DNA from: a virus
IMG/VR virus record: IMGVR_UViG_3300009176_000060
Location: 1 to 31,751 of that record
Length of the DNA stretch: 31,751 bases
Strand: one strand, 5' to 3'
A program made the translations under genes and the position numbers. How positions within the stretch are numbered: position 1 is the first letter of the stretch; each line of letters begins with the position of its first letter. The notes under the pieces are model-generated. The model had not been told where the DNA came from and did no database searches. It worked only from the letters and a program-made list of their open reading frames with translations. This document shows positions 631 to 25,072 of this stretch, in pieces.

Positions 631-827
631 CCGACCTCGACACCCTCATCAACCGCTACGACTGCGCCATCCAACGCAGGTCCGAGTCGCTTGCCATCGA
701 CGAGGACGCTCTGAGGCTCGCCATTGCGGCGCAGCTCGACGTGGCACCGTCTGCCGTCCCCGAGGACACAAGGCTCCTGGCGGGCATGCGCCGCGCGCTG
801 GAGGCCTATCTCGCGGCTACATCCTGA
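627..827 (+). CDS. Small hypothetical protein, 66 residues
   Basis: GTG at 627 overlaps the TGA of the upstream gene (GTGA) and has GGAGG at 613-617, 9 bases before it. A GTG at 618 would add three residues but has poorer spacing. The product is an acidic, probably helical protein with no cysteine and no membrane segment (V-T-D-L-D-T-L-I-N-R-Y at the N-terminus). It is probably co-transcribed with the preceding gene. Its stop lies 11 bases inside the 3' end of the convergent tail-fibre gene. No family recognised. Confidence 0.6.
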   Translation: MTDLDTLINRYDCAIQRRSESLAIDEDALRLAIAAQLDVAPSAVPEDTRLLAGMRRALEAYLAATS

Positions 828-2157
828 GCATGGTCATGAGCGTTGCGATGCCGGCAACGCCAGCGCCGGGGTCGCTGTCCAGGTCGTAGGTCACCGTTCC
901 GGCGGCCACGGCCTCGATCGCGAATATCTGGTGGAGCCCGAGCGCGCTGGCAAAGAGGTAGGTGGTCTGGAGAACGGCAAGCTGGGTCTGCGCCGCGACA
1001 GTATTGATCGACGCATGAACGTTGTCGGTGCAGCCGATCAGGTCCACGCCAATGCAGAACAGCCCCTGGGTGCCCAGGACCGGGCCGGTCTGCATCGATT
1101 GGCTATAGGTGATCAGGACGGCGTCTGAGATGTCACCCGACACATACTGGATCTGATTGTCGTTATCTGCCCTGGCAATTCTCGGAGTGGCCACGGCATA
1201 GGTATACGGAGCACCGTTGTCCTGGTTGTTGGCTTGGATGAGCACGCGATTGTACTCGTTGAACACGAATAGGATCGGCGCAGCTCCGCCAGAGGCTGGC
1301 GCGGGGTTCATGGTCATCGTGACCTGGGCCGCGACACCGATCGTCCGGATCGTGCCAACGTAGGTGCCCCGCCAAGGCGCGATCGAGATGAGATCGTTGA
1401 CGCCATTGCCGTAGCGGCAAGTGATCGTATTGACGTTGGCGAGATAGCCGTAGCTCGTGTAGCTGATCGCGGCCGCCGGGCCCCTGGGATCTGGCACCGC
1501 CCCGGTCTGCGTGTCGGCGACCCACGCCGGCCCGGTGCAAACCCGGAGCGTGGCCGGAGCCACCGTCGTGTCGGCGATGATGTAGACGTCGAAATTCTTG
1601 TTGGGCTGGTGGTACTGGACATGCCCGGCATTGCTGTCGAGCGTCAGTGAGATCTCCGCGAAGGTGTATGGGATCAGGACCGACCCGTTGAACACCTCGA
1701 TGTTGTTGCCATTGTACGGCGTATAGTAGATGACCGACTTGGCCACTTGCCCGAGGCCGGTCAGGATCGGTTGACCGCTCGCCAGCGTCAGGCGGCCACC
1801 AGGATTGAGGAACGCCGACACGCCGCCGGGGCCAAGGCCGCCGCCCGTGTCGGCCGTGAGCTGGTCCCAGACGAGATTGCCGAGCGAGTCCTTGACGATC
1901 TGCCGATAGACACCCTCGCCATAGATGACGGCGCAGCCAGCGGAATCGAGCACGACCGGGTTGGTATTGGCCGTGATCTGATTGGCGTCCTTCCAGGTGG
2001 TCTTTGGCGTCGTTGTTGACGGCACATAGAAGTTGACCGTGCCGCCCACGAGCGGGTTCCCGTTGGCGTCGTCGAGGCACATCTTGCCGGGTGGCAGGAG
2101 CGTCGTGGCGGCCTCGGCGGGGAAGGCTAGGAGGAGCAGGAGAAGGAAGAGGATCAT
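817..2157 (-). CDS. Tail fibre/tailspike-like protein with N-terminal signal peptide
   Basis: 446 residues. Residues 1-17 look like a Sec signal peptide (M-I-L-F, a run of leucines, cleavage after A-E-A). Residues 22-105 are the head-binding-type segment common at the N-terminus of podovirus fibres: D-x-N-G-N-P-L-V-G-G-T-V-N-F-Y, then T-T-W-K-D, N-P-V-V-L-D-S-A-G and Y-R-Q-I-V-K-D. The remainder is beta-rich and low in charge, as in fibre shafts. Six cysteines (M-C-L, A-G-C, V-C-T, T-C-R, F-C-I, G-C-T) are unusual for a fibre. The ATG overlaps the upstream stop as ATGA. It is the last gene of the operon, matching the position of the P22 tailspike gene after the ejection genes. The fibre assignment is good; the role of the signal peptide is unexplained. 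Confidence 0.72.
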   Translation of the reverse strand: MILFLLLLLLAFPAEAATTLLPPGKMCLDDANGNPLVGGTVNFYVPSTTTPKTTWKDANQITANTNPVVLDSAGCAVIYGEGVYRQIVKDSLGNLVWDQLTADTGGGLGPGGVSAFLNPGGRLTLASGQPILTGLGQVAKSVIYYTPYNGNNIEVFNGSVLIPYTFAEISLTLDSNAGHVQYHQPNKNFDVYIIADTTVAPATLRVCTGPAWVADTQTGAVPDPRGPAAAISYTSYGYLANVNTITCRYGNGVNDLISIAPWRGTYVGTIRTIGVAAQVTMTMNPAPASGGAAPILFVFNEYNRVLIQANNQDNGAPYTYAVATPRIARADNDNQIQYVSGDISDAVLITYSQSMQTGPVLGTQGLFCIGVDLIGCTDNVHASINTVAAQTQLAVLQTTYLFASALGLHQIFAIEAVAAGTVTYDLDSDPGAGVAGIATLMTMLRM

Positions 2158-9160: not shown

Positions 9161-11512
9161 TCACGTCCCCGCCGGGGTGGCCTCGATGAAGACGCCATTC
9201 AAGGCGGTGTCGATCGGCGCCGACCAGGACAGCTCCATGACGATGTCGCGGCCCATGCCAAGGTTTGCCCACCAGGGGAACTCGCCGTATTCGCCCTCGT
9301 TGCCCATGCTGCCCGACAGGGCGTCCTGGAAGGTGGCGCCGCGATCGTAGCTGATGCGGAGGAAGATCTGCGGCGTCGCGAAGCGCGGGCTCGGCAGGAG
9401 GTTGTTGGCGGTGATGGCATCGTTGAACGCAACGAGCTGCGCCTGCGTCAGGGCAACGCCCTCCCAGATGACCATGAAAGCCATGCGCGAGCCGGCGGTC
9501 AGCAGCGTGACGCCATTGCCGGCCGTCGCGATCTGCATCGGGAAGCTCGCCGCCGCCGCGCTCGGCGCCGTGTAGGTCGCGTTGAATGGCGTGATGGTGC
9601 CGGCGTTAAGAAAGACCCCGGCGGCAGCTCCCTCGTCAATCGAGACGGCTTGCACGGACCACTGGTTAAGCGGCACCAAGGGGCCGTCAAAGGGCTGGAT
9701 TTGGGCGTCGTTCCCGTTGAACACGCGAACTCTCAGGGCCCCGATGGGGGCTGATGCCGACGCTATGCCGAAGTCGATCCCGGTGCTGTTGACTAGGCTG
9801 CCGCCACCGGAATCTCCCATGAAGCGGCTGGCAGCGCTCGCCGGCCCGAGGGGGAACACCAGCGCGGCGATCGTGAACTTCGCGTTATTTTTGTGAAGGT
9901 TCTCCATCCACGGCTCGTTGACCGAGTCGTAGGTGAAAAACTGGCTACCGGAGAATATCCAGTGCTCGCTCAGCGACATGCCGCCAGGGATGCCGGTAAA
10001 GACAGGGTCGAACGAGGCGACGGTCGCATCGACGCCGCGGAAGAAATCGTAGCCGCCGCCCGACTCGTCGAACCACTTCTGACCAGAGCCGGGCCATGAC
10101 GACAGCGAGCCTGCTTCCAGGAGCAGCTTCGGAGCCGGCAGCGCGAGGTCGGTGATGATCTGCTGGACAGATTTCGAGTAGGGCCCCGGCACCGTGCCAC
10201 CGAGCGTACCGCCCTGGGTGTCGGCGATCACCCGGTCTACCCGCATCCGCTTCCCGTCGTTTAAGACGTGCGGGATGGTTCTCAGCCGCGTGATTGGGCC
10301 GCCGTCGTCGGTGAGCGTGAACGGGTCGAGCTGATAGAGCGTGCCGTTTTCACGGTCGATCGTCAGCACCATGTCGTAGGCATGGCACCAGCCCTGCGAG
10401 CGGTGTCGCTCCTGGCCGTTAGGCGAAGTCCAAGTCAGCTCGTGCCACTGCTTGCCCTTCGTCTCGCAGGCGAAGGATCTGTTCTCGGCCGGGAAGGTGA
10501 GGATGTAATAATTGTGCCCGAGCAGTTGGTAGCAGCCGCCAATCGCGTCGTCGCACATCCTGAACTTGCCGAAGATCGCCTCGATGCCGGGCGAGCTGAT
10601 CGTCTCGATCTGGAAACCCGCGTCCCAGCGCAGCACAAGGCACTTGCCCTGGCGGCTCCGCGACAGGAAGTAGACGCTGGTATCCTCGGTGGCGATCGAG
10701 TAGGGCGCGACGCTGCCGCGCTCGCTAAAGACGCCGGGCACGATGCCGAACAGAAAGTCCGCCGCCCCCGTCTCGTACCACGCCTCGCCGGTCAGGGTGC
10801 CGAGCAGCCAGAGGTTCTTGTGCATGACGGCGAGGCCGACGATCGGATCGGCCGAGCCGGCCTTCAGGGCGAAGTCGAGCGGGTCGAAGGCGTGCCACGG
10901 ATCGGCCGGATTGGGGCTGTTGGGATAAGGGTCGAGCCCGACCAGATTCCGATACGAAACCTTCTCAAGGCTGATGAACCACCTGTTGGTGCCGAGCGTG
11001 TTGAAGACGAACAGCGTGTCAACCGAGCCCACGTGCGAGGTGCCGTTACTCAGCGTCCCCGTCTCCAGGACGAACTGGGCGTTGAAGTTGACGTCGTTGA
11101 TTGCCGCGCAAGCGTGGTACGCCGACGCCGTGAACACCTCAATGTTGATTGCGTAAGCCGTCCTGGTGCCGTCCACGAGCACGACGGCCCGGCCGTTGTC
11201 CGCCATGATCACGGGCGTTTCGAGCGAGGGGATCGTGGTGAGAAGCTGGTAGCCGAAGAGCTGATCGACAAAGTAGACGCGGCCCGCGACGACGACAAAG
11301 ACGTCTCCGTTCGTCGCGCGAAAGCAGCACCGCCCGATGCCGGGTGCGGGGGGCGTGCCCTTGCGCACCAGCCCCGGTGTCGGGAAGTGCGTCGTCGGGG
11401 CCGGGGCCTGCTCGTCCTCGTTGACCTCGGGGTAGAGGTTGAGACAGCGCTGGCTCGACGGGATGATGGCCCGCGACTGGTAGGCACCACCGAGGAGCGG
11501 GACGCGGGGCAT
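9161..11512 (-). CDS. P22 gp10-like tail hub / packaged-DNA stabilisation protein with lectin-like insertion
   Basis: 783 residues. Residues 1-440 follow the gp10 family: L-L-G-G-A-Y, R-C-L-N-L-Y-P-E, beta-propeller-like repeats such as G-R-V-Y-F-V-D and W-L-L-G-T-L-T-G-E-A-W-Y. The end, from about residue 714, has the family's conserved C-terminus: R-I-S-Y-D-R-G-A-T-F, G-E-Y-G-E-F-P-W-W, L-G-M-G-R-D. gp10 closes the portal channel with gp4 after packaging. P22 gp10 is about 470 residues; the excess here is an insertion of about 270 residues between these parts. ATG 11512 overlaps the upstream stop as TGATG; no strong ribosome site is seen, so coupling is likely. Confidence 0.82.
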   Translation of the reverse strand: MPRVPLLGGAYQSRAIIPSSQRCLNLYPEVNEDEQAPAPTTHFPTPGLVRKGTPPAPGIGRCCFRATNGDVFVVVAGRVYFVDQLFGYQLLTTIPSLETPVIMADNGRAVVLVDGTRTAYAINIEVFTASAYHACAAINDVNFNAQFVLETGTLSNGTSHVGSVDTLFVFNTLGTNRWFISLEKVSYRNLVGLDPYPNSPNPADPWHAFDPLDFALKAGSADPIVGLAVMHKNLWLLGTLTGEAWYETGAADFLFGIVPGVFSERGSVAPYSIATEDTSVYFLSRSRQGKCLVLRWDAGFQIETISSPGIEAIFGKFRMCDDAIGGCYQLLGHNYYILTFPAENRSFACETKGKQWHELTWTSPNGQERHRSQGWCHAYDMVLTIDRENGTLYQLDPFTLTDDGGPITRLRTIPHVLNDGKRMRVDRVIADTQGGTLGGTVPGPYSKSVQQIITDLALPAPKLLLEAGSLSSWPGSGQKWFDESGGGYDFFRGVDATVASFDPVFTGIPGGMSLSEHWIFSGSQFFTYDSVNEPWMENLHKNNAKFTIAALVFPLGPASAASRFMGDSGGGSLVNSTGIDFGIASASAPIGALRVRVFNGNDAQIQPFDGPLVPLNQWSVQAVSIDEGAAAGVFLNAGTITPFNATYTAPSAAAASFPMQIATAGNGVTLLTAGSRMAFMVIWEGVALTQAQLVAFNDAITANNLLPSPRFATPQIFLRISYDRGATFQDALSGSMGNEGEYGEFPWWANLGMGRDIVMELSWSAPIDTALNGVFIEATPAGT
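9376..10185 (-). other. Lectin-like (concanavalin/LamG-type) domain inserted in the tail hub
   Basis: Residues about 444-712 of the hub protein. The pattern fits a jelly-roll lectin fold: W-F-D-E-S-G-G-G-Y-D near the start, F-T-I-A-A-L-V-F-P in the first strands, N-Q-W-S-V-Q-A-V-S-I-D and G-V-F-L-N-A-G in the second half, and a closing helix V-A-L-T-Q-A-Q-L-V-A-F-N-D-A-I. The fold assignment is by pattern and was not modelled. The frame is intact across both joints. Confidence 0.6.
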
Positions 11513-12228
11513 CAGATCGTGTTGTCGGTGTAGACGTTATAGACGCCGTTCCGCACCAGCTCGGCCGGGAGCTTGAGCACGGGGATCTGTGCGTTGGCGT
11601 TGCGGATCACGTTGAGGGCGCCGGCCGCCCTGGCGGAGAGGAACTCGTCCGGCGGGAGCTTGTAGGCGCTGAGCAGCTCGTCCTGGAGGTTAAAGCGGAT
11701 CGCCCGATTGTACTCAGGCGGAAAGTCGAGCGTGTCACTGAGATTGTTGAGCGCCGTGAACTGCTGCTTGGTGATGATCCTGGCCGTGTAGAGGAAGGAC
11801 GGCAGCGGCCAGAAATAGAGCCGCCCCATCGGCCACGCCGCGTCATAGAAGACGTACCTCGGGAAGCTCCCCAGGTGCTGCATCCGGATGTTGTTGTAGG
11901 CCTCCATCGACTGGACGATGTCGAGGGGCCAGCCGACGTCGTTCGGGGGCCCCGGCGAGTTCTGGGTGATCCTGGCGGCCTCCAGGCGATCGGGGCGCGC
12001 GACGTTGAACTGTCCTCCCTCCCCGACCGTGTAGGAGGTCGCGCCGGTCATCGGCAGATCGGTGGGCACCAGATGCCAGATCAGCCAGCGCATGCGCTGC
12101 CACTGATCCAGCATGTCCTTGAGCCGGGTGAACGCCCTGTTGATGTCGTGGGCGCTCGGGGTCAGCCCTAGGCCGGTGACGCCCGCATCCTCCAGAGCAA
12201 TGGTGCAGACATCCCGAGCGGTGGGCAT
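11512..12228 (-). CDS. P22 gp4-like tail accessory / head-closure protein
   Basis: 238 residues. The N-terminus has the family pattern of gp4-type tail accessory factors: T-A-R-D-V-C-T-I-A-L-E-D-A-G-V, then helix F-T-R-L-K-D-M-L-D-Q-W, then S-Y-T-V-G-E-G-G-Q-F-N-V-A-R-P. A second half with P-L-P-S-F-L-Y-T-A-R-I and L-D-F-P-P-E-Y-N-R-A-I-R-F-N-L is typical of related phages, which are longer than the P22 protein (about 166 residues). It binds the portal after packaging and seats the hub. ATG 12228 follows the previous stop as TGACATG, with AGGTGA upstream. The adjacent gp10-like gene supports the call. Confidence 0.78.
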   Translation of the reverse strand: MPTARDVCTIALEDAGVTGLGLTPSAHDINRAFTRLKDMLDQWQRMRWLIWHLVPTDLPMTGATSYTVGEGGQFNVARPDRLEAARITQNSPGPPNDVGWPLDIVQSMEAYNNIRMQHLGSFPRYVFYDAAWPMGRLYFWPLPSFLYTARIITKQQFTALNNLSDTLDFPPEYNRAIRFNLQDELLSAYKLPPDEFLSARAAGALNVIRNANAQIPVLKLPAELVRNGVYNVYTDNTI

Positions 12229-12994: not shown

Positions 12995-13016
12995 ACCGTC
13001 CGGCGCTACGGACGGT
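12995..13016 (-). terminator. Perfect 8-bp inverted repeat spanning the coat stop codon
   Basis: ACCGTCCG at 12995-13002 pairs with CGGACGGT at 13009-13016; the 6-base loop holds the TAG of the coat gene. There is no T-run. With the hairpin at 12957-12980 it forms a tandem 3' structure, likely protecting or attenuating the message. Confidence 0.45.
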
Positions 13017-14223
13017 CGGCGACTGCGACGGCCCACTCGCCGCGCGTCCCCAGGAACCCGAACAGAACGTCGAGCCTGTCGATCGCCTGATCGGTCTGCG
13101 GGTTGTACGCGAGAATCGAGCGCATGCTGATGCCGTCGAACACGGCCCGCGACCGCTCCCACACGCCCTCGGGGAGTTCGAGGTCGGCGGTTGCCATCGT
13201 GAACGCATCGGGCTGGTACGCGATGTTTTTGACGTAGACCTCGTTCGCGAGGTTGACTAGCGAGATCGCGGCGCCGGCTGCCGGCGAGGCGGTCACGGTC
13301 TGGTACTGCACCGGCTGTCCGCCCACCGGAGCCACGAGGGCCGGGTAGATCGGGATCGCCGTCGCGCCGCCGAGCACATTCGCCGTGACGACGAACTGCT
13401 TGAGGGTGCCGAGGGTCTGCCGGGTCAGTCGGTTGATGGCGAAGACGCCCGCGATCGTGATGAAGTCGCCGGCATTGAGCGTTCCGGAGATCGCGCCGGT
13501 CACCAAGGTCGCGACGCCAGTCTGGCCGGCACCGGCCACCGTGCCGGCAGTAAAACTCCCGGTCGTGTGCTGGATGACGGTCTGATCTTCAAACCACCTG
13601 AAGCCGAGCGCGTCGTACATGGTGCCTTCCATGTACTGCCGCGAGATCGCGGGGGCCGGGTTGAGCAAGCCGGACAGCGTGCTGACCATGCCGGCACCCG
13701 TGTTCGGCGCGAAGACCAACTTGCGCTGGCCAGGAGGTGCCGAGTTGTTCATCAGCGCAGCGCGAGCGCGGAGCACCGTGAACTGGGTCGGGGACATCAC
13801 CGCGCCGCTGCCGTCCACGTTCGAGACGTAGTTGGCGACGCTGCCCTCCAATCCGGCCATGATGGTGTAGGCCACGTCGGCGGTCAGGAAGGCGATCTTC
13901 GGGGCGAGGATCCGCTCCACGTAGTCGTCGAGCTGCATGGTGCGCTCGACCGAGGAGAAGCTGACATCGACACCGTCCTGGGTCGCCAATGTCATCACGA
14001 TCTGCTGCTCATTGGTATCCTGTGGCTGAGCCGCAGGGCCGTGACGAACAGTGTATTCGTTGGGGAGTCTGATGCGGAGCGAGGTGCCGATCTTGGCGCC
14101 GTCTCTCGCGAACTGATCATCGTACTGGGTGTTGATATTTTGGATGAAGAAGTTGGTGTTCTTCCAAATCCTAACCGCAGCGCGGGTGATCATGGAGATG
14201 GTGAGAATCTGATTGCCGGCCAT
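13006..14223 (-). CDS. Major capsid (coat) protein, P22 gp5 family
   Basis: 405 residues. Features of P22-type coat proteins: an N-terminal helix (L-T-I-S-M-I-T-R-A-A-V-R-I-W-K-N), F-A-R-D-G-A-K-I-G with L-R-I-R-L-P-N-E-Y-T-V-R and G-P-A-A as the N-arm/E-loop region, then D-V-S-F-S-S-V-E-R-T-M-Q-L-D-D-Y. Residues about 215-300 are a beta-rich threonine/glycine segment (T-V-A-G-A-G-Q-T-G-V-A) placed where family members carry an insertion domain. No cysteine. The scaffold gene is directly upstream and the neck genes follow, as in P22. The gene has its own long leader and terminator-like trailer, unlike others in the operon. A GGGGA ribosome site lies about 11 bases before ATG 14223. Confidence 0.85.
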   Translation of the reverse strand: MAGNQILTISMITRAAVRIWKNTNFFIQNINTQYDDQFARDGAKIGTSLRIRLPNEYTVRHGPAAQPQDTNEQQIVMTLATQDGVDVSFSSVERTMQLDDYVERILAPKIAFLTADVAYTIMAGLEGSVANYVSNVDGSGAVMSPTQFTVLRARAALMNNSAPPGQRKLVFAPNTGAGMVSTLSGLLNPAPAISRQYMEGTMYDALGFRWFEDQTVIQHTTGSFTAGTVAGAGQTGVATLVTGAISGTLNAGDFITIAGVFAINRLTRQTLGTLKQFVVTANVLGGATAIPIYPALVAPVGGQPVQYQTVTASPAAGAAISLVNLANEVYVKNIAYQPDAFTMATADLELPEGVWERSRAVFDGISMRSILAYNPQTDQAIDRLDVLFGFLGTRGEWAVAVADRP

Positions 14224-16733: not shown

Positions 16734-16897
16734 AGTGACAGGCCTCCCAGCCGTCCGGTGAGTAGCAGGATCAGGAAAATGAGCAGGATCACTCCGATGA
16801 TCCCCGAGGGACCATAACCCCAATTGGCAGCGTAGCCCCACGTAGGAAAGGCTCCAACCAGGAGCAGGACGAGAATCACGATAAGGACGATCGTCAT
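16730..16897 (-). CDS. DUF3309-type small membrane protein
   Basis: 55 residues. ATG 16897 overlaps the stop of the 1100-residue gene (ATGA), GGGAG lies 7 bases upstream, and its TGA overlaps the next ATG (ATGA). Two hydrophobic helices (residues 2-16 and 34-47) flank a tryptophan/glycine centre: A-F-P-T-W-G-Y, N-W-G-Y-G-P-S-G, G-V-I-L-L-I-F-L-I-L-L-L-T-G-R-L. This is the layout of the DUF3309 family, small bacterial membrane proteins of unknown function. Placement near lysis genes makes an envelope-related or lysis-accessory role possible, but that is inference. Confidence 0.75.
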   Translation of the reverse strand: MTIVLIVILVLLLVGAFPTWGYAANWGYGPSGIIGVILLIFLILLLTGRLGGLSL

Positions 16898-19800
16898 TTC
16901 GGTTCTCCCGCAAACGGGTCGTGATCGACCGGCGTCAGCCTCACTCCCGGCGGGGCGACGACGGGGTCGCTTCGCCAGTCTCCCGCTCCTCCCGCAGGTC
17001 CGCCGGCCACTTGACCCTGCTCAGCCCCGCGAACAGCTCCTGCTCCAGGGCTAGCTGCTCCTCGGTCTGATCGGCTGGATGCGAGCCGGTCAAGGGCTTG
17101 GGGGTCGACTCCGGATTGTTCGTACCACGGGGCATTGCCTGACTCCGTTACCTTGAAACCCTTGGGGACGACCCTAGCCTTGCGCTTCTTGACGTCCGCG
17201 AGGAACTGACGCCACGCCGGCACGCTGAACTCATAGGTGTTCCCTGTCGGCACAGTATAGCTGAAATACGGGGCGCCATTCTCGTCGCGCGCATACCGGG
17301 CGCCGTAGGCGAAAGCGCCGTACTCGCCCTCCTTGGCTGACACCGTCGAGATGGCGGGAACGTTCCGCCGCCCCAGGGCGTCTTCCATGATCGCCCCCAA
17401 GGTGCCGTGCGAGGCCTCTTGCTGGCTGTGGGCAACCCAGCTCTCCCAGTGGAAGCGCCCGATGCTTGCGTCCTCGCGGCGCCGCCCGGCGGCCTCGTAG
17501 ATGTCACCGATCTTTGCCCCGAGGGTCCGCTCGATCGCCTCGTAGACCAGGAGGCCACGAGCGCCGTAGGTGAGGTTCGACAGGGCCGTGCCGGTGACGA
17601 CCTTCTTGTTGACCTTCTGGCCATCGTAGATGTTGCGATCGGCGAAGCGGCCGTCGTCCCAGAGCTGCCGGGTCTGCACCCGGTCGATCACCATGACATC
17701 CTTCTTGCCGGCCACGAGCAGCGTGAACGACACGACCTTGTTGTCGATGCCGACGCCCTCGCCGAACTTCATGAACTCGCGACGGATTTGCGGGCCGGTC
17801 ATCTCGGGGTCGGCGAGCATGTCGTGCAGCCGCTGGAGATTGGAAATGCCGTCCGCGCCCAGGCGGCCCATCTTCAGCAGGAAGTGGGTTCCGAAGGCGT
17901 TGAGATTGTGCAGGGCGCCGGAGCCCGGCAGTCCGGTATCCTTGGGCGCCACCGAGGCCGCCCACTCCTTGTAGGCCGGGATGTCGTCCTTGGTGAACTC
18001 GCCGCGCGCCGCCTTCCGGATCCACTCATTGGCCCCACTGAAGGCGTCGATGAAGAGCGATTCCTGCGTGTAGGGCGACACGCCCCGCGACAGGAACGAC
18101 CACATGAAGAGCTTGCCGGTGGTGACCGGGGAGAGCCGCCCCGCCTCGTAAGCCTGCCGCATCCTGGCCGCCTCGGCGAAGCCGTGATCGGCATCGGCGA
18201 TCTGCCCCGGCGACAGCGAGGCGATCTTCCGCGCCGCGCCGTCGCCGTTGATGTCGCGGATGAAGGCGTAGGGCGGGATGGGCACCTCATCGCTGGCGAA
18301 GGCATGCGCCATCATCTGCGACCAGTCCTTGGGGGTTTCAGTGGCCCTCGGGAAGCCGGCCATGAGCAGATCGATATTGTCGAGCTGGGCCTGGGCGTTC
18401 TTGTTGGTCGTGGCTTGGGTGATCAGTGGCTTGTCGGGCAGAACGCCAGGGTTCCGGACCCTGACCCGGAGGTCAGGCACAAAGCCGAGCCTGTTGCCCG
18501 GCTCGCGCGCAGACATCAGCCCGGCCGCGAGACGCCCGCCCCGGCCACCTGCGTAAAGCGTCCACTCCGGCATCAGCCCGATCTTCTGCGGCGCGTACTG
18601 CGTGTCGTCACCGGAGGCATGGCGATTCTTCTCGCCGTGCGGGCCGTAATTGACCCAGCTATTCTGGCCTCGCGTCTCCGATGCCAGTGCTCGCTGGGCA
18701 GGAGGTGTGAACATGTCCCGGTGGATCCGGAAGGCGTTGTGTTCACCCTCGGCGCGGAACCCGACGCCCTCTTTGTAGTGGCCAAAATAGTCGTGAACGA
18801 TCCTGAAAATATCGTTGGCGACGACCGGCTGGCCGCTGATCACCTCGCTGGTCGGTCGCAGCATCGGATTGTCGCGCATCGCCGCCGCGGCCTCGGCGCC
18901 CGTCCCGAACCCCTCGCTGGTCGGAAACACCCACAGGTGATTGTTCTCGCGAATGTCCTGCATCGCCATTCGCGGATTCGACTTGTAGGGATTGGTGCCG
19001 GGCGGGTTGAACTCGACCTTGAGGCCGGTGCGCTTGACGGCCTCCCACTGCGCCATCGTCTCGTCGATCAGGGCGCCGTAGGCGGACTGAACGGCCGGAT
19101 CGTCCGGCGCATGTGGCATGTCCTCAAAGGCCTGGGCGGTCTTGGCCGCCTTCTCCTTGTCAACCTTCTTGTACTTGTTGGTCGGATTGTAGGGGATCCC
19201 GGCCTCGGCCATGTAGTCGGCCGCCGCCTTGCGGGCGACGGCACTCGGGCCGGGAACATGGACGCTACCGTCGGCAAGCTCGATCGGTTTGCGCGGCAGG
19301 CCTTCTAGCGGGGGCTCACCGGCCGCCGCAAGATCGGCTTCCGCTGATGCCTGTCGAACGCGCGGCTCTCCGCCTCCCCCTCCGCCTTCGGATCCCAGTC
19401 CTCCTCCAGCGGGCCGTGGGAGCGCAGCTCGTTCTTCTCCGCCTCCGATAGCAGAGGTTTCTGCTGCTGCTGGTTTGGCACCGACTCGCTCCCGCTGTAT
19501 GAGCCAACTCTTCTGGTTGAGAGTTAGCTGCCGCGGATCATAGCCCATACCGACCAGGATGTCGTCCATCTGGGCCACGGTCATGGCCGCGCCGGAGTAA
19601 TCCGCAGGCAACGAGCCCTTGGCCAAGTCCGCAGCGGCGGCCCCTGTCGCCACCTTGGCAAAGGGGCGGTCGGCAGCCACCCTCGCCGCCTCGGGCAAGA
19701 CAGGCTCCCGGCCGACAGCCTTGCCGGCAACTACCAATCGGTTGGTCGTAACCGGAGTGCCCTTGCCGCCGAACATGCTCAGATTCGTGGCGGCCTCGAC

Positions 19801-20196
19801 AGCCCTCGTAGCCTCGTCTGGCACCGTCGCTAACCGCGCCTCGTACTCCGACTGCGTCTCATCAGGTAGCCGTATAGGAGGGCCGCCATGCCCAGAGATG
19901 TACTCTGCCGAACGCGCCAGCGACGCCGGGATCTCCGGGATGCTCGCAGCCATCCGCACCGGGAGGCCGGCAAGGTGCATCATTGCGTCGATCCTGGAAC
20001 CAGTGCCCTCCGCCAGCCGACGCCGCCGCGCCTCTTCCTCCAGCTCGCCACGTAGACCGATGCGGGTCATGTAGCGGCGGCTGCGCTCTGACCATACCGG
20101 CTCGTACCAGCGCGGATCGTTGTCGGCCCAGTCAGCCTCGCCGCTGCCCGAGGCCTCGCTGAAGTCGATGTTCTGGCGGGTGAGCGCGTTGGCCAC
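16894..20196 (-). CDS. 1100-residue multidomain phage protein (polyvalent/virion type)
   Basis: GTG 20196 directly follows the endolysin stop; GGAGG is 11 bases upstream. Residues 1-335: loosely folded, with a Gly/Glu-rich linker (about 260-285). Residues 336-545 are a domain recurring in large phage proteins: Y-N-P-T-N-K-Y, R-E-N-N-H-L-W-V-F-P-T-S-E-G-F-G, I-V-H-D-Y-F-G-H, E-T-R-G-Q-N-S-W-V-N-Y-G-P, Q-K-I-G-L-M-P-E-W. Residues 600-1020 form a second module: K-L-F-M-W-S-F-L-S-R-G, V-I-D-R-V-Q-T-R-Q-L-W, G-R-F-H-W-E-S-W. The C-terminal 70 residues are disordered and end with D-W-R-S-D-P-V-V and H-D-P-F-A-G. It may be a cargo protein delivered with DNA. Activity unknown. Confidence 0.65.
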   Translation of the reverse strand: MANALTRQNIDFSEASGSGEADWADNDPRWYEPVWSERSRRYMTRIGLRGELEEEARRRRLAEGTGSRIDAMMHLAGLPVRMAASIPEIPASLARSAEYISGHGGPPIRLPDETQSEYEARLATVPDEATRAVEAATNLSMFGGKGTPVTTNRLVVAGKAVGREPVLPEAARVAADRPFAKVATGAAAADLAKGSLPADYSGAAMTVAQMDDILVGMGYDPRQLTLNQKSWLIQRERVGAKPAAAETSAIGGGEERAALPRPAGGGLGSEGGGGGGEPRVRQASAEADLAAAGEPPLEGLPRKPIELADGSVHVPGPSAVARKAAADYMAEAGIPYNPTNKYKKVDKEKAAKTAQAFEDMPHAPDDPAVQSAYGALIDETMAQWEAVKRTGLKVEFNPPGTNPYKSNPRMAMQDIRENNHLWVFPTSEGFGTGAEAAAAMRDNPMLRPTSEVISGQPVVANDIFRIVHDYFGHYKEGVGFRAEGEHNAFRIHRDMFTPPAQRALASETRGQNSWVNYGPHGEKNRHASGDDTQYAPQKIGLMPEWTLYAGGRGGRLAAGLMSAREPGNRLGFVPDLRVRVRNPGVLPDKPLITQATTNKNAQAQLDNIDLLMAGFPRATETPKDWSQMMAHAFASDEVPIPPYAFIRDINGDGAARKIASLSPGQIADADHGFAEAARMRQAYEAGRLSPVTTGKLFMWSFLSRGVSPYTQESLFIDAFSGANEWIRKAARGEFTKDDIPAYKEWAASVAPKDTGLPGSGALHNLNAFGTHFLLKMGRLGADGISNLQRLHDMLADPEMTGPQIRREFMKFGEGVGIDNKVVSFTLLVAGKKDVMVIDRVQTRQLWDDGRFADRNIYDGQKVNKKVVTGTALSNLTYGARGLLVYEAIERTLGAKIGDIYEAAGRRREDASIGRFHWESWVAHSQQEASHGTLGAIMEDALGRRNVPAISTVSAKEGEYGAFAYGARYARDENGAPYFSYTVPTGNTYEFSVPAWRQFLADVKKRKARVVPKGFKVTESGNAPWYEQSGVDPQALDRLASSRSDRGAASPGAGAVRGAEQGQVAGGPAGGAGDWRSDPVVAPPGVRLTPVDHDPFAGEPK

Positions 20197-21095: not shown

Positions 21096-21250
21096 AGGTT
21101 CCACGGGTGCCGGATGGCTGCGAGCTTGAAGTGGTCGCGGTTACGCCGCTGCGACGCATGACCGTAGCGCCACTTGTGGATCAGGCGGAGGCGGCGCTTG
21201 CGATCGAGCGCCAGGGCGATCGACTCACGCAAGGTCAGATACCTACTCAC
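21080..21250 (-). CDS. Small basic protein between portal and holin (56 residues)
   Basis: GTG 21250 overlaps the portal stop by 8 bases, with GAGGGTGGA just upstream, and its TGA overlaps the ATG at 21080. The product is strongly basic and aromatic (R-K-R-R-L-R-L-I-H-K-W-R-Y-G-H, then R-H-P-W-N-L-W-L-D-M). It neatly fills the only gap between portal and holin in an otherwise gapless operon, which supports its being real. No family recognised; it could be a lysis regulator or just spacer-derived. Confidence 0.5.
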   Translation of the reverse strand: MSRYLTLRESIALALDRKRRLRLIHKWRYGHASQRRNRDHFKLAAIRHPWNLWLDM

Positions 21251-23495
21251 TGTCCACCCTCAGAAACTTGCCCGGCCGCGCCTCATCGGGGAGGTAGTAC
21301 TGCCCGTCGGGAGCCTGCTCGGCACCCTCGACCGGCGGCACCACCGGGTCGTTCTGCCAGTCTTCGCCTTCCTCCTCGGTGGCGGCCTCCTCCTCGGTGG
21401 CGGCCTCTGCCTCAGCCTCCGGCTCCTCGCCGGTATCGCTCGGCTCCGCCCGCTGCTCCAAGCCCATGTCCTTGAGGAGCTTCTCGATGATCGGCCGCAG
21501 CGTCTCCTCGCTGAGATCGGACTGCGCGTTGCCGACCTCCTTGAGCCTGCGGGTGTCGGCGTCCTGCTGCTCGATCCGGCGCCGCTCGGCGTGATCTTTA
21601 ATTTGCAGCTCCTGCTTGGCGAGCTTGTCCATCGTCTCGGTGAGCAGGCTCTGGAGGCTCTGGTTCTGCGCCTGGGCAGCCTGGAGAGCTGCGTCGGGGC
21701 CCTCTCCGGTCGCCTCGGGCGGAACCATCCTCTTCAAGCGATCCGCGATTTCGTCGGCGCCGGGGAAGTCGGCGTTCCTGAACATCAGGTCGCCGATCAC
21801 CGTGACGAGCTGCTGGTTGGCGGTCGTGATCTGCACGAACGCATCCCACGCCTCCTGCCTCCTGGTCGCGTAGTTCGGGCCGATATCAGAATCGACCCAG
21901 TACCTGCCGACACGCGGGTTGAAGATCACCCACGTCTTGTCGTCGGGGCCCGTCTCCTCGGCATAGGCAACGTCTGAGGTGGGGTCGATCTGAATGAGCT
22001 GCTCGGTGCCGTCCTCGGCCAGGATCTGGCGGACCTGTTTCGACGAGTAGATGTGCGGAGCGATGTCCAGGATGATGTTGCCCACCTGCCGGATCGCCGT
22101 CGCGAGGCCGTCAATGTAGTGGTAGGTGGACTGGTCGCCCTTGCGCTGGCGCTCGTTGATTGCGATGCCACTGATCGCATTGGTCGGCTGCCCGAAATTC
22201 TCCTCGCGCTGGCCGCTGACCATCATCAGCTCCTCGCGCGCCACCATCATGCCCTGGATGTAGCCCTGCGCCATCTCCGGCGGGTCGATCGGCGTCGGCG
22301 GCGGCAATTGCCGGCCCTCGCTGTCGAAGGCGTTGATGGGGATGTAGGGGTAGTTGCTCGTGTTGATCGTCTTGAAGTAGGCGTCGAGGCTCTCGGTGCT
22401 GCCAACGGGGATAAACCATTTCGCCTTGGTCTGGAGAGCCACCTGCTCGACCGCATTGGATGTCCAGAAATTGTACATCCGCTGCGCGTCTTTCATGCCG
22501 CGCGTGTGTCCCTTCCTATCGAGCTGACCCTCGATCACCGCCTCCTCACCGACGACCGGGACCAGCGGCACGTAGCGGCCCGGCCACTTGCCGCGATCGA
22601 CGATGTCGTTGCCGGCTATTTTGACCCAGCGGATCTCCTCGTCCAGGAAATCGCGGCTGCGGACGATGTCGCCGGGATCGATCTGCTGGCGGATGGCGGC
22701 CGGGATCTTCGACCACTGAAATTGCTGCGGCTCGCCCCCTGCGTCGGAGTTCCGGACCAGGACCAGCCGGTCCTTTTTGAGCACCTTGTAAAAATACTCG
22801 GCTTGCCTGATGTGATCCTGGTCGATCCAACCCTGCGAGTTGCCGAGCGCGGCCTCGCTGACCTTGCCTTTCATGTGCGGGTATTCAGCGAGGAAGTCGC
22901 TGCGCGGCGTGTCGTCGAAGTAGAAGCCGAAGCGCGCGTCCGACCCGTCGACCTCGTTCTTGTCGGGGTCCAAAAACACATTCAGCGGGTTCCTTACCCG
23001 CCTGATGTAAATCTCCTTGTCGAACGTCCCCGGCACGTAGTCCCAGTCCACCCGGAGATAGCCGAGGCCGCTCTGCACCTGGAAATCAGAGGCCGTCGAG
23101 TAGGCGCTCGTCGCCTTGCTGATGCGCTCGATGTGGCGGACCAAACCCATCCAGATTTTGGCGGCCTCGAACGTCGCCTGCTCGCCCACCGGGCTCACCT
23201 TGATCGAGGGCTTGTTCTGCTTCGCGTCGTTGGTGATCTGGAGATTGTGTTGCCTGATTTTATTCACGGTCAGGCGCGGCTTGTACCCCGCCGGATCGTC
23301 ACGCTTCGTGCTCCACAGGTAGCCCGGCCACTGCCAGCCGTTATCGGGATCCGCCCAATGAAATTTCTGGTCCGCGAGCCAGCGTTGCTGGGCGGTGCCC
23401 TCGAAATCCTTGCAGCGCTGCCAGCGCGCCTTGGCGATCGCGATGATCTGCTCGTCGCCATGCATGACCTCGATGGCGGTTTCCTCTGGCGTCAT
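21243..23495 (-). CDS. Portal protein, P22 family
   Basis: 750 residues from ATG 23495, which overlaps the terminase stop (ATGA) and has AGGTGG 8 bases upstream; GTG 23507 would add four residues. Length matches P22 gp1 (725). Family features: W-A-D-P-D-N-G-W-Q-W-P near residue 50, R-L-T-V-N-K-I-R-Q-H, Y-L-R-V-D-W-D-Y, N-P-L-N-V-F-L-D-P, a long crown/barrel region with N-A-I-S-G-I-A-I-N-E-R-Q-R-K-G, and a helical barrel near residues 610-690 (Q-A-A-Q-A-Q-N-Q-S-L-Q-S). The acidic tail has a duplicated E-E-E-A-A-T and ends with D-W-Q-N-D-P-V-V. It forms the dodecameric DNA channel at the vertex. One cysteine only. Confidence 0.87.
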   Translation of the reverse strand: MTPEETAIEVMHGDEQIIAIAKARWQRCKDFEGTAQQRWLADQKFHWADPDNGWQWPGYLWSTKRDDPAGYKPRLTVNKIRQHNLQITNDAKQNKPSIKVSPVGEQATFEAAKIWMGLVRHIERISKATSAYSTASDFQVQSGLGYLRVDWDYVPGTFDKEIYIRRVRNPLNVFLDPDKNEVDGSDARFGFYFDDTPRSDFLAEYPHMKGKVSEAALGNSQGWIDQDHIRQAEYFYKVLKKDRLVLVRNSDAGGEPQQFQWSKIPAAIRQQIDPGDIVRSRDFLDEEIRWVKIAGNDIVDRGKWPGRYVPLVPVVGEEAVIEGQLDRKGHTRGMKDAQRMYNFWTSNAVEQVALQTKAKWFIPVGSTESLDAYFKTINTSNYPYIPINAFDSEGRQLPPPTPIDPPEMAQGYIQGMMVAREELMMVSGQREENFGQPTNAISGIAINERQRKGDQSTYHYIDGLATAIRQVGNIILDIAPHIYSSKQVRQILAEDGTEQLIQIDPTSDVAYAEETGPDDKTWVIFNPRVGRYWVDSDIGPNYATRRQEAWDAFVQITTANQQLVTVIGDLMFRNADFPGADEIADRLKRMVPPEATGEGPDAALQAAQAQNQSLQSLLTETMDKLAKQELQIKDHAERRRIEQQDADTRRLKEVGNAQSDLSEETLRPIIEKLLKDMGLEQRAEPSDTGEEPEAEAEAATEEEAATEEEGEDWQNDPVVPPVEGAEQAPDGQYYLPDEARPGKFLRVDSE
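21371..21406 (-). repeat. Perfect 18-bp tandem duplication in the portal C-terminus
   Basis: Two identical 18-base copies lie head to tail at 21371-21388 and 21389-21406. They encode a repeated six-residue acidic unit (E-E-E-A-A-T). Identity at DNA level suggests a recent slippage event in a disordered tail. Confidence 0.8.
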
Positions 23496-25072
23496 TGCAG
23501 CATCCACCTGTCATTTCGCCAGGGCGACTCGCCCTCGTACTGCGGCTGGTAGTCCTCGATCGGCGGTAGCCCTGGCACCAGGATCTGCTTCAGCCGCGCC
23601 GAGGCGCCCCGGCGATGCCACGCCATGACGACGGCGTCCGCCTCGTCGGTGGAGCCCCCAGTGCGCTTCCTGATGGCCTCCTTGTCCTCGATCTGGAGGT
23701 CGGTGCCACGCACCTCGTAGCGCGGCGTCGTCAACTGGGCGAGGAGCCTGGGGCTCGGCGGCAGCATGACGTCCAGGTCGCTGTCGGGCGAGAGCGCCTC
23801 TCGGAAGCGCCAGTACATCTCGGCGCGGAGGTTTCGGAAGCCGAGCTTGCCGTCCCTGGCCTTGAGGTTGGACTTGCGCGAAAACACGGTGCCGTGGACG
23901 TGGATGCCGTGCTGGTGTTTCAGGTTCGAGAGGATGCCGGTGCCCCAGCCGCCGGTCGCGTCAACCGAGATGTCGGCCTCGTCGCGCCGCGTCAGGATGA
24001 GCAGCGCCGCGTGCTGCACCGGGTCGGACATCATGACGCCCTGGCGGCTGATGATCGGCGCGAACCAGTTGTCCTCGTGCAGGGCCGCGATCGTGGTCAC
24101 GTCAGGGCCGCCCATCGCGACGTCCATCGCCAGCGCGATCATCGTCCGCGACTTCTCACCGGCCTTCCGCCATCGCTCCTGCGCGGCGCGCACCCAGTCG
24201 GTCGGGATGGTCTGCCACTCGTGGTCCTCGCGGCCGGCGAGGAAGTCGCCGTGCAGGAGCTGCGAGCGGAGCGGCTCTGGCAGGTTCTCGATTCTCGCCC
24301 GGTAGCCGGTGTCGCGGAGGAAGGGGTTGTCCTCCAGCAATGAGAGGATGAAGGTGTAGCTCTCGTGCGTGTACCGATGCCCGCCGATCTCGGTGACGCC
24401 GGGCCCGTGGACCCAGCGGAGCTTGCGGTCCACGACGATGGCCCAGCGCAGCTCGCCGTGCTCGGCCGGGTCGGGGAAGGTCGGGTCGAGCCAGGGCGCG
24501 AACCATTCCAAAAGCCACTCGCCATCACCGCCGGTCGGCGGGTTCGTCGCAATGATCACGCGCTTGCGGATGCCCACCGTGACGCTGCGGAGCCAGCCGG
24601 TGACGTAGAGCACCTTGTCGAGCGAGAGCTGGGCGCCCTCGTCGAAGCCGATGAAATCGTGCGGACGGCCCTGCCACGTCAGCTCGGAGTGTGGTTTCTC
24701 CAGGGCGCCAAATTCCAGGATCCCGCGCTGGTGCTTCAGCTTCATGTCGGTGGCGTTGTAGCCAGCTCTGCTGCTGAGGATCTCGATGAGCCTGTCCTCG
24801 GTGCCGCGGAGATCGACGCCCTGGCGGCGGAAGATCACCGAGTTCTCATGCTGGGTGAGTGCGGTCCCCAGGAGGAGGTCCGTCTTGCCGCCCCCGGCCG
24901 CGCCGCCGTAGAGGAGCCAGTCGGCCGGAGAGAGGTAGGCCAGCATCTGCCGGCCTGGATTAGGCAGCCAGATCTGCTTGGCCCGGCTGCGGGCCAGCTC
25001 GGTGAGCCCGGCGCGCTCGTCTGGGCCGAGCCCGGCGAGGAGGCCGGTGAGTTTGGTGAGGACGTCGCTCAC
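23492..25072 (-). CDS. terL: Terminase large subunit
   Basis: 526 residues from GTG 25072 (GTGA overlap). ATPase: Walker A G-A-A-G-G-G-K63-T64, Walker B F-I-G-F-D144-E145, and coupling motif I-I-A-T-N-P-P near residue 177. Nuclease (RNase H-like): M-D317-V-A-M, S-V-D371-A-T-G and D476-E-A-D479, the expected acidic triad. It drives DNA into the procapsid through the portal and cuts the concatemer. The P22-type portal follows directly. The weak ribosome site suggests coupling to the small gene upstream. No recognisable small subunit gene is adjacent. Confidence 0.93.
   Translation of the reverse strand: MSDVLTKLTGLLAGLGPDERAGLTELARSRAKQIWLPNPGRQMLAYLSPADWLLYGGAAGGGKTDLLLGTALTQHENSVIFRRQGVDLRGTEDRLIEILSSRAGYNATDMKLKHQRGILEFGALEKPHSELTWQGRPHDFIGFDEGAQLSLDKVLYVTGWLRSVTVGIRKRVIIATNPPTGGDGEWLLEWFAPWLDPTFPDPAEHGELRWAIVVDRKLRWVHGPGVTEIGGHRYTHESYTFILSLLEDNPFLRDTGYRARIENLPEPLRSQLLHGDFLAGREDHEWQTIPTDWVRAAQERWRKAGEKSRTMIALAMDVAMGGPDVTTIAALHEDNWFAPIISRQGVMMSDPVQHAALLILTRRDEADISVDATGGWGTGILSNLKHQHGIHVHGTVFSRKSNLKARDGKLGFRNLRAEMYWRFREALSPDSDLDVMLPPSPRLLAQLTTPRYEVRGTDLQIEDKEAIRKRTGGSTDEADAVVMAWHRRGASARLKQILVPGLPPIEDYQPQYEGESPWRNDRWMLQ

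Follow-up and report, generated by a model that had tools for sequence, protein, structure and literature searches.

In the tail hub gp12 of phage T7 and the nozzle of SU10, a platform that touches the adaptor is built jointly from the N- and C-terminal segments of the polypeptide, with a propeller in between and distal tip domains inserted at blades 2-3 (PMC6702177, PMC9509320). Among siphophages, the Dit hub of the 936 phages contains carbohydrate-binding modules as internal insertions, and these are reported to promote host binding (PMC6669499). The solved hubs P22 gp10 (8eap), Sf6 gp8 (7sg7), Pan3 (9vyg) and Pam1 (7eeq) comprise 442-472 residues and contain only a short loop (about 400-406 in P22 gp10) at a location where the hub described here has ~270 residues more. 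None of the open-licence papers searched was found to describe a gp10-type hub with a LamG/ConA-type insert.

The hub in question is encoded in a 31,751-nucleotide stretch of viral DNA, referred to here as the window, and its features are collected in Table 1. Judged from its gene content, the window record is that of a P22-type podovirus. A P22-type portal and coat, a probable adaptor and a terminase are encoded in the window, an ejection-type gene is found downstream of the hub, and the gene order portal - capsid - adaptor - hub - ejection genes, typical of gp10 hubs, is present. The phrog_12985 family matched by the probable adaptor is annotated there as of unknown function, while the weak second match is to the head-tail adaptor Ad3 (phrog_637, E=4e-4); in phage PAE2, the gene at the adaptor position is annotated as a P22 tail accessory factor. 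Between an endolysin-like gene and the capsid region, the window also encodes a 1,100-aa protein (16894-20196, minus strand) that is unusually large for this position and matches phrog_3170, of unknown function, over part of its length only.

Table 1. Positions within the window of the hub, its parts and neighbouring genes.
Feature	Position	Strand	Basis
gp10/Hc3-type tail hub, 783 aa, with inserted lectin-like domain	9161..11512	-	phrog_578 and Foldseek
N-terminal conserved hub part, residues 1-435	10208..11512	-	phrog_578, 71-hub alignment, model
Whole insert, residues 436-713	9374..10207	-	71-hub alignment; clade SH-aLRT 100
N-terminal insert linker, residues 438-445, low confidence	10178..10201	-	pLDDT <50
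LamG/concanavalin-type jelly-roll (predicted), residues 446-704	9401..10177	-	AlphaFold2, Foldseek against PDB and BFVD, sub-threshold PF13385
Conserved half of domain, residues 463-544	9881..10126	-	mean identity
Variable half of domain, residues 545-691	9440..9880	-	mean identity
C-terminal insert linker, residues 705-711, low confidence	9380..9400	-	pLDDT <50
C-terminal conserved hub part, residues 714-783	9164..9373	-	residues 710-773 against 7eeq 365-430
Probable adaptor (gp4-like), next upstream of hub	11512..12228	-	phrog_12985, E=3e-30; weak phrog_637
P22-type major capsid protein	13006..14223	-	PF11651, E=1e-29
P22-type portal	21243..23507	-	PF16510, E=4e-139
Separate tailspike, variable C-terminus	817..2157	-	Pam1/Pan3-type head-binding domain, residues 29-98

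The hub gene is a single uninterrupted reading frame. Residues 3-435 of its product match the 'head closure Hc3' family (phrog_578, E=1e-62; PHROGs) and residues 710-773 align with 365-430 of the solved Pam1 hub, bearing out the first-pass annotation, which held that both conserved parts of gp10 are kept. A profile of the hub family recovers the Pan3 stabilization protein 9vyg (5e-47) and 7eeq (4e-43), and P22/Sf6 gp10/gp8 in the 1e-14 range. The best structural match of the full AlphaFold model is the Pan3 hub 9vyg_M (E=4e-24, TM 0.85 by target), with P22 gp10 (8eap_D) at TM 0.83, and the flanks on both sides of the insert adopt the fold of the solved P22, Sf6, Pan3 and Pam1 hubs (9vyg_M, 8eap_D, 8u10 and 7eeq matched at TM 0.82-0.85 by target; Foldseek).

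An alignment of 71 hubs, mostly from IMG/VR, delineates the extra segment, whose length was counted between anchor residues 435, the end of an 'ADTQGG' motif, and 715. This length is 269-281 residues in nine of the 71 hubs, the window included, 33-49 in seven and only 3-12, a simple hairpin, in the remaining 55. The nine insert-bearing hubs, all of them metagenomic, form a single clade (SH-aLRT 100), within which the C-terminal part of the hub is 70-96% identical between different members, and this clade is nested in a larger group whose other members are devoid of the module (e.g. L024, 48% identical). Searches of whole records likewise located the module in 9/9 insert-type records (window included) and in 0/11 insert-free hub records. 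Restricted to one clade and missing from the insert-free records, the insert is thus a derived gain, for which one event suffices, and not a component of the hub core; that it belongs to the core of all gp10 proteins is rejected, as the comparison with gp10 relatives proposed in the first-pass annotation found no counterpart in 62/71 hubs. The ~270 extra residues placed there at 9376-10185 (~443-712) agree with the extent given in Table 1. Distinct versions of the insert occur on contigs from about a dozen independent metagenomes, so that it is not an assembly artefact. Other hubs have inserts of 33-49 residues at the same hairpin, which can thus accommodate extra sequence and is probably exposed.

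Modelled alone from an alignment of 23 homologues, the insert reached a pLDDT of 89.0 and a pTM of 0.90 (AlphaFold2) and folds as a mostly-β structure with short helices and one C-terminal helix. Foldseek against the PDB gave 141 matches at E<=0.001, at the head of which stand proteins containing domains of the ConA/LamG type. The best matches are lectin-like or carbohydrate-binding proteins, among them trypanosomal sialidases, botulinum binding domains and NTNH, domain 4 of AbnA, CBM40 and the phage tailspikes of CBA120 and Pan3 (9vyh_p; TM 0.58/0.59, E=3e-7), and the viral matches of the insert in BFVD are mostly named concanavalin/LamG-like. The matches to sialidases and toxins presumably run through the lectin-like LamG/ConA-type domains of these proteins, and the resemblance to toxins implies no toxin activity. 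At the level of sequence, the Pfam family Laminin_G_3 (PF13385) matches residues 542-692 with E=5.4e-4, under the curated cut-off (20.6-22.7 bits against 27.6), but it matches 10/23 members of the module family, with a best E of 8.7e-15, and the homologue L127 scores 71.9 bits. Searched against the sequences in the PDB, a module profile gave only weak matches (E 0.34 or worse), so that the fold search was needed. The model thus allows the insert to be assigned with confidence to the LamG/concanavalin A-like jelly-rolls, as had been anticipated from the strand pattern, and the checks by AlphaFold and Foldseek that had been suggested for it turned up no unrelated fold. Many folds of the LamG/ConA type bind no sugar. 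A glycosidase, such as the GH16-type glucanases that belong to this superfamily, was also considered and rejected, no match to the patterns of a GH16-type ExDxxE-type catalytic motif having been found in the hub protein.

Where this domain would sit on the tail is suggested by its place in the chain. By analogy with T7 gp12, residues 1-435 would comprise the start of the platform, the β-propeller and most of a long strand (423-437) belonging to the C-terminal part. In the hub model, the insert comes after the β-propeller, between this strand and that of residues 715-721, and because it follows the propeller, the arrangement in T7 and SU10 would place it on the platform, at the adaptor side. 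Six copies per tail are probably present, if the hub is hexameric like its solved relatives, and as six copies would be too large for the lumen, the insert should project sideways. A lateral, adaptor-side position is therefore more likely by this analogy, which draws on nozzles with little sequence similarity to the hub. The linkers that flank the jelly-roll are predicted to be probably flexible. A different insert of 90-177 residues, composed of repeats of the GGAGYTNGTY..GGTGTGATADITVSGG type, occurs in hubs devoid of the lectin (L047:6001-7731, L054:3107-5065, L055:1947-3911; found in L047 and L054-L056) and represents a second insertion site of the same hub family; by the same logic, it would lie at the blade-3 loop, where T7 gp12 has a tip domain.

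Homologues of the module, 29-42% identical, occur in other phages, mostly as small or free-standing proteins. One of these follows fibre-like genes (L014) and another lies between a portal-like gene and genes of the capsid region (L106). In phages L104 and L107, two tandem copies are located inside central tail fibre J proteins of ~1,800 residues (phrog_31, E=8e-75 and 4e-92), which also bear a GpJ FNIII domain. Copies 1 and 2 of these proteins (L104:248-5680, L107:1837-7197) fall on separate branches, each common to both phages, and the duplication hence predates the split of L104 and L107. Three tandem modules occur in a single open reading frame that reaches the contig end in a Hyphomicrobiales metagenome-assembled genome (L127:2580-4760). 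In the module tree, the modules of hubs and J proteins form one group (support 100/99) apart from the free ones, with the J modules sister to the hub inserts. The module is a phage-specific family of its own. Conservation is uneven along the domain: the conserved half has a mean identity of 0.66 within hubs, 0.59 between hubs and J proteins and 0.50 between hubs and free modules, with the residues W480..D482..SGxGYDFF..F526xYD..NExWM..H540 kept in all contexts, compared to only 0.36 within hubs for the variable half. With the insert as tblastn query, 50,697 phage records gave no match at E<=1. A hub search covering 397 genomes from the order to which the Mesorhizobium relative belongs turned up no insert-bearing hub, and strong matches to the module are present in 3/397 of these genomes.

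The lectin-like domain is exchanged between hubs as a cassette. The hub cores of L002 and L010 are 95% identical in protein before the insert and 96% after it, with a synonymous difference of ~0.2, whereas their inserts are 36-67% identical with a synonymous difference of 0.54-0.62, and differ at 33% of residues in the N-terminal half and 64% in the C-terminal half. The DNA identity between the two collapses from ~0.92 to ~0.36 from about residue 470 and is back to 0.96 by 707. The trees conflict in a corresponding manner: that of the core has L002 and L010 as sisters, whereas that of the insert places L002 with the window and L010 with L023. By the AU test, a {window,L002} group is rejected for the core (p-AU 0.0008), as is {L002,L010} for the insert (p-AU 7e-5), p-values that are somewhat weakened by the groups having been picked after the trees were seen. 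Such an exchange of a surface module on an almost unchanged backbone is characteristic of specificity modules, but is no proof of one. Swap and divergence would also fit relaxed constraint without receptor binding. That the insert is recent foreign DNA is not backed by composition, which gives no clear foreign signal (GC 64.2% in the insert versus 65.2% in the core, GC3 83.5 versus 89.0). Two further pairs of hubs differ in other ways. The inserts of L008:2015-4261 and L009:2385-4631 have the same DNA sequence, yet synonymous differences occur in parts of the N-terminal core, a pattern opposite to that of L002 and L010 and pointing to recombination near the insert. L005:565-2862 and L006:3861-6158 have an N-terminus identical in DNA and drop to 0.88-0.94 at ~708-750, just past the insert, possibly through another crossover.

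A separate tailspike is encoded by the last gene of the window. The N-terminus of this protein contains a domain with a weak yet consistent match to the head-binding domains of the tailspikes of Pam1 (E=0.0018) and Pan3 (E=0.02), and was found in 18/22 other records searched, those with insert-free hubs included, ahead of variable C-termini. Counted over records with hubs, window included, it is present in 19/20 of those searched, with or without a hub lectin, which makes the lectin an addition to the tailspike and not its replacement. As a separate tailspike is encoded, the hub lectin is probably accessory and not the sole receptor binder. The tailspike reading frame starts with a signal-peptide-like stretch (MILFLLLLLLAFPAEA) ahead of the head-binding domain, and this may reflect a wrong start or an unusual feature.

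On balance, the inserted domain is probably an accessory adhesin for host surface glycans, a putative podoviral counterpart of the siphophage 'evolved Dit'. Participation in host or receptor binding is plausible because the module is found in J tips and is swapped between near-identical hubs, with its C-terminal half the most divergent. The hub clade has gained a phage-specific LamG/concanavalin jelly-roll once, in the C-terminal (platform) hairpin, with two short flexible linkers holding it on the hub. If the hub is hexameric, six jelly-rolls would protrude laterally from the tail near the adaptor and bind host surface glycans, and the added avidity would bring the tailspikes and the tail channel to the envelope, the main receptor-binding protein remaining the separate tailspike. 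Identity, insertion, fold, homologues and exchange are computed results, and it is the outward position, the glycan binding and the accessory role that we infer.

Exchange and the company that the module keeps also bear on readings in which it recognizes no receptor. General decoration, conferring a weak and non-specific stickiness to exopolysaccharide or environmental particles, would accord with the free-standing relatives found elsewhere, such as that of L106 at a place expected of a head decoration, and with the commonness of LamG-like folds across phages; it is rather unlikely, as exchange between nearly identical hubs is more usual for specificity modules and relatives are inserted in J-type tips. 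A structural role, in which the jelly-roll would strengthen the joint between hub and adaptor or offer the tailspikes an additional docking site, is unlikely, although in T7 gp12 a jelly-roll that docks the fibres lies on the outside, close to the corresponding chain segment and between propeller and platform (PMC6702177), and although phages with the insert also have the tailspike anchor. The same type of anchor is present in relatives devoid of the insert, so that docking does not depend on it. Relatives of the domain occur as free-standing proteins or within J tips, and the top 50 fold matches of the insert do not include T7 gp12. A dock would be expected to be conserved, whereas this domain is swapped and divergent. 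Membership of a T7-type fibre dock was rejected on homology and position.

The first-pass annotation had placed receptor recognition next to the DNA exit, which, taken further, would make the lectin a primary receptor-recognition domain with binding directly coupled to channel opening. The domain does belong to a hub protein that is channel-closing in relatives, but this placement is not supported, as the insert maps to the post-propeller C-terminal segment, which in T7 and SU10 lies in the adaptor-side platform and not at the distal tip; with the flexible linkers speaking against direct mechanical coupling and a separate tailspike encoded, such a role is very unlikely. A further, very improbable reading makes the six hub lectins an opening sensor, in which glycan binding at the platform, and not engagement of the tailspike, would unlock the channel; if true, a single protein would both recognize the host and gate the DNA.

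The proposed accessory adhesin can be set against several known systems. The nearest precedent is the 'evolved Dit' of lactococcal 936 siphophages. Like the window hub, whose insert is of predicted lectin-type fold and probably present in six copies, it is a tail hub protein with an internally inserted module, there of carbohydrate-binding type, presented in several copies beside the receptor-binding protein (PMC6669499). The evolved Dit is, however, a Dit hub with a BppA-type CBM from siphophages of Gram-positives, compared to a gp10 hub with a predicted LamG/ConA-type domain here, and host binding has been reported for the former (PMC6669499) while the latter presents a predicted lectin-type fold. 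The window hub is no homologue of Dit, the protein being gp10/Hc3; it is not an evolved Dit by descent, but may work like one. In Pan3, the phage with the solved hub closest to that of the window, a fold similar to the insert resides on a separate tailspike chain (9vyh_p) and not on the hub. T7 gp12 and the SU10 nozzle likewise have extra domains inserted in a hexameric β-propeller hub, but these are located at blades 2-3, at the distal tip (PMC6702177, PMC9509320), whereas the window insert is in the C-terminal platform part and of another family. The lambda J-type fibres of L104 and L107 contain a homologous module (39-42% identity), sister to the hub inserts, but other phages are concerned, and the module is present as a tandem pair in their tail-tip protein (phrog_31). 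The concept of an 'evolved hub', familiar from siphophage Dit, is hereby extended to a podoviral gp10 hub, and the same lectin-type module is seen in both gp10 and J, tail hubs that are unrelated to each other, along with a clear case of cassette exchange. Residues 446-704, together with the natural variants L002 and L010, provide concrete material for testing whether lectins borne on a hub set host specificity.
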